Positions 19,617 to 23,322 of a DNA stretch of 64,000 nt are shown here, in pieces. This stretch comes from Gammaproteobacteria bacterium (GTDB lineage: Bacteria > Gemmatimonadota > Gemmatimonadetes > Longimicrobiales > Gaopeijiaceae), in the NCBI GenBank assembly GCA_009840525.1, contig VXNP01000027.1:1-64000 (forward strand). The letters run 5' to 3'. Made by a program: the position numbers and the translations under genes. Below the pieces are notes generated by a model. That model searched no databases and was not told the origin of the DNA. It saw nothing but the letters and a program-made list of their open reading frames with translations. Each line of letters opens with the position of its first letter. Position 1 is the stretch's first letter.

Positions 19617-19895
19617 GAGGAACGGTCGTGAAGGGAACCACCCGCATCCTGTCGACCCCTGTGTACCGGCCGGCAGACGAACGCGGGACGGGCGAGGAAC
19701 CTACCGGCAATCCGCGCGGGCCGTCAACCCCGCCGCGCCGCGCCATCCGCGCGCGAACACCGTGGCCCGGGGGCGCAGGCCCGCGATCGGCGATTGACTT
19801 TTCCACACTCCCGGGATACCGTTGCATCCTTCGCTGCCCCGGGGGCTCTCCGCGCAAGCCCCGGCCCTTGATTCTCCTCCCCCAGTCCTTTCTCG
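19617..19895. promoter_or_regulatory. rpmH-dnaA divergent region; dnaA promoter with embedded DnaA box
   Basis: This 279-bp gap separates the divergent rpmH and dnaA genes. On the plus strand TTGACT (19794-19799) is followed after 17 bp by TACCGT (19817-19822), a plausible sigma-70 promoter about 75 bp before the dnaA ATG. The DnaA-box-like TTTTCCACA (19799-19807) begins at the last base of the -35 hexamer and fills the spacer, which would allow DnaA autorepression. The rest shows no further clear element. Confidence 0.5.
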
Positions 19896-21284
19896 ATGGA
19901 ACTCTCTGCTTCCGAGATCTGGGCTCACGCCCTGGCGGCCGCGCGGACCTACCTTCCGGAGCAGAGTTTTCAGACCTGGCTCTCGGGCACCGAGGCGGTC
20001 GGCTTCTCGGACGACGAGTTGCTGGTCGAGGCCCCCAGCCAGTTCCACGTGGAGTGGATCGAGGACAAGTACGGCGCCCTTCTCCGCAGGAGCATCGAGC
20101 AGAGGCTGGGACGCCCCCTGTCGGTCTCCTACCGTTCGTCGGCTTCACACCCCTCGCCCGCGGCCTTCGCTCTGCCCGCGGATGGCCCCAACTATTCCTC
20201 ACCCGCATATCGGTCCACGATTGCCGAGTCGAAGCCGACGGTCCCCTCCGACAAACTGAACGAACGGTACACCTTCGACCGCTTCGTCGTAGGCAACAAC
20301 AACCAGCTTGCGGTCGCTGCCTGCCGCGCGGTCGCCGAGAAACCGGCTCGCATGTACAACCCCCTCTTCGTCTACGGAGGGGTGGGACTGGGAAAAACCC
20401 ATCTCATGCACGCGATCGGCAACTATCTCCAACAGTACGCCCCGCAGACGCACATCGCGTACGTTCCCACCGAGCAATTCACCAACGAGCTCGTCACATC
20501 CATCCAGGAAGGCGCCACCCCCGGTTTCCGTCGGCGTTATCGGCATATCGACCTCCTGCTCGTCGACGACATTCACTTCCTCGAGGGCAAGGAACGCACG
20601 CAGGAGGAGTTTTTTCATACCTTCAACGCCCTGTACGACGCGCAGAAGCAGATTGTTCTCACCAGCGACCGCGCGCCCAGCAGCCTGTCCGGGCTCGAGG
20701 AACGCCTGGTGTCGAGGTTCGCGTGGGGTCTGGTGGCAGACATCAAGCCCCCCGACTACGAAACCCGGATCGCCATCGTCCGCAAGAAATCCGCCGCCGA
20801 CGGGCTCTTCCTGGAGGATGACGTGATCGACCTCGTAGCCCGTTCGTGTACCTCTTCAGTCCGCGAGATGGAAGGCGCGATCATCAAGTTGCTCGCCTTC
20901 TCGTCGCTGACCAATCAGGAGATCACGATCGCGCTCGCGCACGAGGCCCTGCAGGAATCGCGAATCCCGACCCTCGTCCCGTCCCCGTCCACATCGGCAA
21001 CCGACATCCTGAATGCCTCCGCGGCGGCATGGGGGGTGGAACCCCGAGGCCTCGTCTCGAAGCGGCGTACTCGCGACGTGACCGTGCCCCGTCAGGTCGC
21101 CATGTTCCTGATCAAGGAGATCCTCGACCTGCCCCTTACCAGGATTGGCGCGGCCTTCGGGGGACGGGATCACTCCACGGTGATCCACTCGATCAGAAAG
21201 GTGGATCGGGATCTGCAGACGGACGAGGAGTTCGCCAGCCGTGTCTCCCGCCTGCGGGAGCAGATTCTCGCGGGAGGAGTCTGA
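19896..21284 (+). CDS. dnaA: Chromosomal replication initiator protein DnaA
   Basis: A 462-aa initiator. Domain I (residues ~1-80, IWAHALAAARTYLPEQSFQTWL), short linker domain II, AAA+ domain III starting YTFDRFVVGNNNQLAVAA with Walker A GGVGLGKTH, Walker B LLLVDDIHFLEGKE, and domain IV with the DnaA-box recognition signature GGRDHSTVIHSIRKV. Start at 19896 aligns with the usual domain I start; no strong ribosome site is visible. It is followed by the origin and dnaN. Confidence 0.98.
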   Translation: MELSASEIWAHALAAARTYLPEQSFQTWLSGTEAVGFSDDELLVEAPSQFHVEWIEDKYGALLRRSIEQRLGRPLSVSYRSSASHPSPAAFALPADGPNYSSPAYRSTIAESKPTVPSDKLNERYTFDRFVVGNNNQLAVAACRAVAEKPARMYNPLFVYGGVGLGKTHLMHAIGNYLQQYAPQTHIAYVPTEQFTNELVTSIQEGATPGFRRRYRHIDLLLVDDIHFLEGKERTQEEFFHTFNALYDAQKQIVLTSDRAPSSLSGLEERLVSRFAWGLVADIKPPDYETRIAIVRKKSAADGLFLEDDVIDLVARSCTSSVREMEGAIIKLLAFSSLTNQEITIALAHEALQESRIPTLVPSPSTSATDILNASAAAWGVEPRGLVSKRRTRDVTVPRQVAMFLIKEILDLPLTRIGAAFGGRDHSTVIHSIRKVDRDLQTDEEFASRVSRLREQILAGGV

Positions 21285-21579
21285 GAATCATGTTCAAACC
21301 GCTGGGGAGAACCGGGGAAACTGCGTGGCTTGTTCCGCTCCCGAAGCTCCCGTTGTGGATTCATGGAAAGCCGGATGATCTTTTGCATCCGCAATCCACG
21401 GCATCCCTCCATTCCCGAGACCGTTGGGAAGAACCAGTTTACCCGGGCGGAGGCGAGGCGTTGTCTACAACTCCACAGCCTCTACTACTACTACTTTCTT
21501 GCAGTACAAGGGTAGAACTCGAACTTCCTCTCGTGGATTCCCGCAAGATCGCAACTCCATCTCCCAGGATCCGAACCAG
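21285..21579. other. Replication origin oriC (DnaA boxes and DnaA-trio run)
   Basis: The 295-bp dnaA-dnaN gap. DnaA-box-like 9-mers: TGTGGATTC (21354-21362, minus orientation), TTGTCTACA (21461-21469) and weak ACTCCACAG (21470-21478). After a short CCT spacer comes CTACTACTACTACTT at 21482-21496, i.e. four CTA triplets plus CTT. Adjacent boxes, spacer and CTA repeats match the basal unwinding element (DnaA-trios) described for Bacillus subtilis, where DnaA strands bind the repeat to open the duplex. The gene-direction switch at dnaA, parABS nearby and the mnmG-rpmH block support the placement. Confidence 0.8.
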
Positions 21580-22695
21580 ATGAAACTTGCCCTGACTCGG
21601 CAGAACCTGTACCAGGGACTCACGGCAGTCTCCCAATCCGTTCCAGCCCGCACCACGCTGCCGGTTCTCTCCAACATTCTCTTCGATGCAACCGAAGACG
21701 GCCTCTGGATCACGGCCACGGATCTGGATGTCACCGTTCGGACCCGCGTAGCCGCGGAGGTTCAGGAGACAGGTTCGTTGACGGTCCCGGGTAGGAAGAT
21801 CCAGGAAATCGTGCGGGCGCTGCCCGACCGCCCGGTGCTGGCCAGCACTCTGGGGAGCCAGATGGAGCTGGTCTGCGGCAAGAGCCGCTTCAAGCTCAAC
21901 GGTCTGCCCGCAGATGATTTCCCGTCGTCGCCCCACCTCGACTTCGATCAGGCATGGACTACCTCGGGCGCCGAGCTCTTGTCGCTAATCCGCAACACGT
22001 CCTTCGCGGTATCGAGCGAAGAAAGCCGACCGATCCTGAGCGGAGTACTCTGGGAGTTGCGCGGCAACGAGATGCGAATGGTGGCGACCAACGGCCACAG
22101 GCTTGCGAGGATGTCGGTGAAGACCGAGACGTCCGGGCCAGCGGCGTCGAACCTCATCGTACCCCCCTCGGCGCTGAGGCTGGTTCAGCGGCTTTTCGGT
22201 GAAGAGGATGAACTCGAGTTGGGCCGCGACGGCAACTTCCTTGGCTTCCGCTCGGGTCCAACCGAGGTCTATACCCGGCTGATCGATGGCACCTACCCGA
22301 ACTACAAGCAGGTAATCCCCCGGGACAACGACAAGTTCGCGGTGGTCGACAAGAACAGCCTGCTTGCCGCCGTGAAGCGCATGGATGTCGTCGCCAGCGA
22401 CCAGACGCACCGCATCAAGCTCAGCTTTTCCGGTAGCCGGATGAACCTGAGCGTGAGTACTCCCGATCTGGGCGAGGGCTACGATGAGGTGGATCTCGGC
22501 TATGAGGGCGACGACCTCGATATCGGGTTCAACGCCAGCTATCTGATCGAGGTGCTCCAGCACATGCCCACGGATGACGTTCGGCTGGCGTTCAAGGCGC
22601 CGGAGCGTGCGGCAACTGTCGAGCCGGTGCCTCCGGAGGACGGCGACGCGATCGACTACCTCTGCCTGGTAATGCCCCTCCGACTACTCGACTGA
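21580..22695 (+). CDS. dnaN: DNA polymerase III beta sliding clamp
   Basis: A 371-aa clamp with three repeated domains. The start MKLALTRQNLYQGLTAV is typical; ARTTLPVLSNILF, VPGRKIQEIVRALPD, NTSFAVSSEESRPILSGVL and the C-terminal LVMPLRL (clamp-protein-binding tail) identify it. ATG 21580 was chosen; the reading frame is open farther upstream through oriC, but that part encodes no DnaN sequence. Convergent with pyrE. Confidence 0.98.
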   Translation: MKLALTRQNLYQGLTAVSQSVPARTTLPVLSNILFDATEDGLWITATDLDVTVRTRVAAEVQETGSLTVPGRKIQEIVRALPDRPVLASTLGSQMELVCGKSRFKLNGLPADDFPSSPHLDFDQAWTTSGAELLSLIRNTSFAVSSEESRPILSGVLWELRGNEMRMVATNGHRLARMSVKTETSGPAASNLIVPPSALRLVQRLFGEEDELELGRDGNFLGFRSGPTEVYTRLIDGTYPNYKQVIPRDNDKFAVVDKNSLLAAVKRMDVVASDQTHRIKLSFSGSRMNLSVSTPDLGEGYDEVDLGYEGDDLDIGFNASYLIEVLQHMPTDDVRLAFKAPERAATVEPVPPEDGDAIDYLCLVMPLRLLD

Positions 22696-22731: not shown

Positions 22732-23322
22732 CTAGCCCGGCGTCCCCGGAATCCATGCGCCAGCCTGCTCCTGGCGGGCGGCGAGGAGTTCGCTCGCGGG
22801 AAATACGGTTGTCGCGTCATACCCTTCGGCCGCGATACGCTCGCGGGCTCCTTCCTCACGGTCGACGAGTGCCAGGACGGCGAGAACCTTGGCGCCGTGG
22901 TTCTCGACCGCCCGGATGGCCTTGAGGGTGCTCCGGCCGGTCGTCATGGCGTCCTCGATGACCACCGCACGCGCATCCCCCGGGATCCCGCCCTCGACCC
23001 TGCGCCGGGTGCCGTACTCCTTCGCGTCCTTGCGGACGGAAAACGCGTCGATGGGCCGGCCCTCCTCCCAGCTCTGGTGCGCGATGGCGTAGGCGATCGG
23101 ATCGGCTCCCATCGTAAGGCCGCCGACGTGTGTGGGATCCAGACCGGCGCGCCGGAGGTAACTCAGGCATACGCGGCCGACGAGCGCCTGTCCCTCGGCG
23201 GTCATCGTCGTCGCTCGCGCGTCTACGTAGTACGTCGAGCGGGCGCCGCTGGCGAGCGTGAAGCGGCCAACCCGGAGAGACCGCTCGATCAACAGGGCAA
23301 GCAGGCGGTCGCGGGTGTCCAT
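22732..23322 (-). CDS. pyrE: Orotate phosphoribosyltransferase
   Basis: A 196-aa type I phosphoribosyltransferase that converts orotate and PRPP to OMP in pyrimidine synthesis. FTLASGARSTYYVDAR (orotate-site region), the flexible catalytic loop FSVRKDAKEYGT and the PRPP-binding motif VVIEDAMTTGRST are all present. Sits alone, convergent with dnaN. Confidence 0.94.
   Translation of the reverse strand: MDTRDRLLALLIERSLRVGRFTLASGARSTYYVDARATTMTAEGQALVGRVCLSYLRRAGLDPTHVGGLTMGADPIAYAIAHQSWEEGRPIDAFSVRKDAKEYGTRRRVEGGIPGDARAVVIEDAMTTGRSTLKAIRAVENHGAKVLAVLALVDREEGARERIAAEGYDATTVFPASELLAARQEQAGAWIPGTPG

Follow-up and report, generated by a model that had tools for sequence, protein, structure and literature searches.

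The closest described system is the basal unwinding system (BUS) of Bacillus subtilis. In the BUS model, DnaA bound to two co-oriented DnaA boxes is directed to trios on single-stranded DNA, and two bases of each trio sit in a pocket between adjacent DnaA subunits (PMC6669920, PMC10721633). A 2021 BUS survey of 2070 species accepted a box with at most two mismatches to TTATCCACA, a spacer shorter than 16 nt and at least three NAN trios, and it suspected that some deviant trios lack a central A (PMC8287927). A second co-oriented box with up to four mismatches is optional, the spacer, measured between the trios and the better-matching box, covers 0–16 nt with a peak at 10–13 nt, and the trios, at least three in frame on the correct strand, read 3′-NAN-5′, with 3′-GAT-5′ the commonest. 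Pelliciari et al. (2023) reported that C can substitute for the central A, and G and T less well, and proposed that Asn187 of DnaA recognises a primary amine, as carried by A or C. The system described below, from a member of Gemmatimonadota, is a standard BUS of this known and widely predicted kind.

The dnaA-dnaN gap as predicted origin

The window is the whole stretch of DNA that was analysed (64,000 nt), and the assembly containing it comprises 3.99 Mb in 155 contigs. The nearest named relatives of its DnaA were Gemmatimonadota (Candidatus Benthicola marisminoris and Gemmatimonadetes MAGs, 54–57% identity). The replication initiator gene dnaA lies on the plus strand at 19896–21284 (TIGR00362, 501.6 bits), and dnaN, encoding the DNA polymerase III beta clamp, lies on the same strand at 21580–22695 (TIGR00663, 289.8 bits). 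The 295-bp intergenic gap between them (21285–21579) is the predicted oriC, as judged from the gene limits and a switch of GC skew at 21–23 kb. Directly 3′ of dnaN, a pyrE-like gene (TIGR00336) occupies 22732–23322 on the minus strand. In other phyla the position after dnaN is often taken by recF.

GC skew in the window was negative before 21–23 kb and positive after. In a closed chromosome from the window's family (G014), the sign of the skew flipped between 3.00 and 3.20 Mb, with dnaA at 3.124 Mb, and a second flip was located near 1 Mb, opposite dnaA, in sampled 20-kb blocks. Across dnaA of G031 the skew passed from −0.042 to +0.044, and in G034 a weak and noisy signal fitted an origin at dnaA loosely. 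A BUS sits at the chromosome origin, and the skew switch places the gap there in the window and in its closed relatives. The sequence-only reading, which had taken the dnaA-dnaN gap for the origin, agreed with the skew of both the window and the relatives' complete chromosomes. When box-like nine-mers were counted by script in 1-kb bins over the whole window, the 21–22 kb bin was the richest (7 against a mean of 1.14), most of its nine-mers being weak and some lying inside coding sequence.

Upstream of dnaA, TTGACTTTTCCACACTCCCGGGATACCGT at 19790–19825 was invariant or nearly so in nine genomes of the genus. A DnaA box in it, TTTTCCACA (19799–19807), overlaps the spacer between a −35-like TTGACT and a −10-like TACCGT 17 nt on. 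As far as the letters go, this is the layout that would be expected of a DnaA controlling its own promoter.

The box-spacer-trio unit and its conservation

The four strings that the sequence-only reading had named within 21353–21496 were all found in the gap: TTGTCTACA at 21461–21469, ACTCCACAG at 21470–21478, a CCT spacer at 21479–21481 and CTACTACTACTACTT at 21482–21496. The first is BUS DnaA-box 1 (plus strand), with two mismatches to TTATCCACA. BUS DnaA-box 2, AACTCCACA, has three mismatches and the core TCCACA, and it occupies 21469–21477 on the plus strand. Both boxes are as weak as had been claimed, but they are not placed end to end: their cores lie 8 bp apart and the two nine-mers share one base. 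A GC-rich spacer, GCCT (21478–21481, plus strand), was delimited from the sequence and the genus alignment. It is followed by the DnaA-trios at 21482–21496 on the minus strand, written (CTA)4CTT on the plus strand and read 3′-GAT GAT GAT GAT GAA-5′ on the captured strand. The unit falls within the published BUS rules, with two mismatches in box 1, a 12-nt spacer from the end of box 1 to the first trio and five trios (four GAT and one GAA), and box 2, which overlaps box 1 by one base, provides the optional second box.

Behind the trios, a more AT-rich stretch (21497–21531) varies within the genus; it is likely a continuation of the melted region. AT content was 57% over 21482–21530 compared with 41% upstream. 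Three further box-like sites were recorded in the gap: GAATCCACA at 21354–21362 (minus strand, two mismatches, invariant in the nine genus genomes), CAATCCACG at 21392–21400 (plus strand, three mismatches, with a genus-invariant core AATCCACG) and GAATCCACG at 21532–21540 (minus strand, three mismatches, invariant in the genus). The first two fall within the range proposed earlier, which began at 21353. The trio run is not a product of chance, since CTACTACTACTACT was absent from all 20,000 dinucleotide shuffles made of the dnaA-dnaN gap and (CTA)4CT is a single copy in the whole 3.99-Mb genome.

The genus set consisted of nine genomes with eight distinct sequences, whose DnaA proteins are 93–99% identical. 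The trio run was letter-identical in all nine, which bore out the conservation expected by the sequence-only reading, while many columns differed in the 20-odd bases following. From box 1 to the trios, one base varied in box 1 and one in the spacer. Three AATCCAC(A/G) sites, two of them on the minus strand, were invariant as well.

The order of two boxes, spacer and trios, with fixed spacing, was likewise found to be widespread over the families of the phylum. Of 113 dnaA-dnaN gaps, some of them nearly identical to one another, 41 contained the strict unit CCAC-N5-CTANTNNT on the expected strand and none on the other; shuffles gave about 0.1. In families f1–f8, most gaps had CTA-type trios next to a box pair, and in family f11 the trios read CTA ATA ATA ATA. 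The pattern TCCACA-N4-CTACTACTA, which contains (CTA)3, matched 37 of 390 genomes. Thirty of these 37 matches were checked: all 30 lay just upstream of dnaN and 29 had dnaA on the other side, the contig stretch of the remaining locus (L246) being too short to show dnaA. The control with one base less (N3) matched 5 of 395 genomes, of which three were true dnaA-dnaN origins that have this shorter spacer and two were unrelated to dnaA. The box-trio spacing is therefore specific. In the origins of family f9 (L138, L139 and L141), boxes and trios are the same and the spacer has one base less. When only the boxes and the first CTA were fixed, 61 of 395 genomes matched, nearly all with trios that the pattern had not required; about four of the 61 look like chance. 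A strict anchor rule fitted 72 of 114 gaps, box or spacing drift was seen in families f4, f5 and f7, and a clear unit was not seen in a few f11 gaps (L181, L183 and L184). The gap of L121 (genus g14) carries CTA TTA CTA CTA CTA CTA with no recognisable TCCAC box pair adjoining it.

Aligning DnaA with Bacillota DnaA sequences gave the correspondence of residue numbers. N197, V200, I203, R212, K232, E233 and E238 of the window's protein correspond to Asn187, Ile190, Ile193, Arg202, Lys222, Glu223 and Glu228 of B. subtilis, and the ISM residues that capture single-stranded DNA are therefore present, with valine at the Ile190 position.

From the sequence, position, uniqueness, conservation and spacing of the unit, the skew and the DnaA contact residues, we conclude with high confidence that the gap represents the chromosome origin, with 21461–21496 as its BUS. 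Binding, unwinding and helicase loading would proceed as in B. subtilis and the other species tested. DnaA would bind both co-oriented boxes as double-stranded DNA and, across the GC spacer, be guided onto the minus strand. Each pair of subunits would capture the first two bases of a trio (3′-GA-5′), and the duplex would be stretched and opened towards dnaN, leading to helicase loading. The earlier proposal that a Bacillus-like origin architecture operates in this phylum thus gains support at the level of sequence: the unit is conserved, the skew agrees and the DnaA contact residues are kept.

Three other explanations were weighed. The stretch could code for extra N-terminal residues of the dnaN product or serve as the dnaN promoter or leader, with the repeat conserved for that. 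An open frame does run from TTG at 21424 into dnaN, and within the genus the trio run lies at a fixed 98 nt before dnaN. However, the distance to dnaN varies widely across the phylum and not in multiples of three, the dnaN family model begins at ATG 21580, and a search of the gap revealed neither a sigma-70-like promoter nor a terminator. We regard this explanation as very unlikely on its own, although the unit may have a dual role, as a BUS and as dnaN leader, promoter or coding sequence. It is highly improbable that the boxes mainly regulate dnaN transcription while the strands open elsewhere. The box in the conserved promoter-like region upstream of dnaA makes DnaA-controlled transcription nearby plausible, but GC skew switches at the dnaA-dnaN locus, the trios are conserved and not the boxes alone, and there is a single such unit per genome. 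That the CTA run is chance or a slippage-prone microsatellite with no role in a non-coding gap is barely credible, even though slippage can make perfect trinucleotide repeats and the adjoining boxes are weak, and it is refuted by the conserved box-trio spacing: no slippage is seen in the length or sequence of the run in the genus, its distance to the boxes is fixed in many genera, and imperfect runs of relatives (CTA CTA TTA, CTA TTA CTG) hold the trio frame, which slippage leaves unexplained.

The central trio base and a deviant clade

Canonical sites of the phylum were picked by their boxes and a CTA/TTA-type first trio. At 54 distinct sites of this kind, the central base of trios 2–5 was T in 172, G in 32, C in 11 and A in 1 on the plus strand, that is, A in 172, C in 32, G in 11 and T in 1 on the trio strand. 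The central base in the phylum tolerates A or C, G less often and T almost never, as expected if a primary amine is contacted. Base changes were counted on the DnaA tree by simple parsimony, in a test devised after CGA trios had been noticed, and its p-values are descriptive. With the deviant clade described below left out, the central changes in trios 2–4 were T→G 11, T→C 3 and T→A 0, mostly giving C on the trio strand, compared with 21 transitions and 9 transversions away from consensus at trio positions 1 and 3, an ordinary transition bias (Fisher p = 0.004 for the contrast). A first tree, with the deviant clade and trio 5 included, gave 7 transitions and 18 transversions for the central base, compared with 28 and 10 at the other positions (p = 0.0006). 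Raw counts for Bacilli, from 44 distinct sites chosen by eye as true units and not tree-corrected, were T 201, G 12, A 5 and C 2. In Gemmatimonadota, the pattern of central bases fits the experimentally proposed primary-amine rule, with A or C read by Asn187. Outside the deviant clade, lone CGA trios have arisen repeatedly in the phylum.

The deviant clade consists of genera g25 and g22 of the window's family (support 0.999; loci L118, L126, L003, L072, L157–L163 and L204). Its ten distinct sites have the usual boxes and box-trio distance, but read (C/T)TA TGA TGA (C/T)GA. When the frame is counted from the boxes, trios 2–4 are C-centred in all ten; CTA TGA TGA CGA, adjoining intact boxes, corresponds to 3′-GAT ACT ACT GCT-5′. 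An alternative register two bases on may apply, 3′-TAC TAC TGC TAA-5′, with central A, A, G and A and a pyrimidine first. Ordinary trio-like triplets (CTG TTA CTA ATT and similar) are found about 24 nt downstream in the gaps of this clade. Asn187 and the remaining contact residues are conserved in its DnaA, and the differences fixed in the clade cluster around the ISM (positions 188–234); on this long branch, such differences are not distinguishable from an effect of common descent. The chances that the natural origins of g25 and g22 use cytosine-centred DnaA-trios seem to us evenly balanced. If they do, the evolutionary record would support the view that a primary amine, carried by A or C, is recognised and not adenine itself. 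No description of natural C-centred variants was found in the literature searched.

Comparison with known systems

The case for a BUS is here extended, at the sequence level, to Gemmatimonadota. No description of a BUS in this phylum was found in the literature searched; the main text of the survey does not name Gemmatimonadota, and its supplementary species table may list Gemmatimonas (PMC8287927). For an uncultured group, the unit supplies exact and compact predicted origin coordinates. The primary-amine rule has so far come from B. subtilis mutants and modified bases, and the natural trio variants of the phylum allow a test of it on evolved origins. The variants also suggest how some origins could evade searches that require a central adenine. 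The survey demanded a central A in every trio (PMC8287927), and the C-centred g25/g22 sites would be missed or score low.

The nearest counterpart is the incC BUS of B. subtilis, with boxes 6/7, a GC-rich spacer and trios (PMC6669920, PMC10721633). That system has an experimental basis, whereas the unit in the window is known from its sequence. The boxes in the window are further from TTATCCACA, and its trios are four identical ones and 3′-GAA-5′, in contrast to the mixed trios of B. subtilis. The two systems are alike in the gene gap they occupy, in the order and strand of their elements, in the co-oriented box pair, in their 3′-GAT-5′ trios and in the conserved DnaA contact residues, and the 12 nt separating box 1 from the first trio equal the distance in the Bacillota loci examined in the same way.
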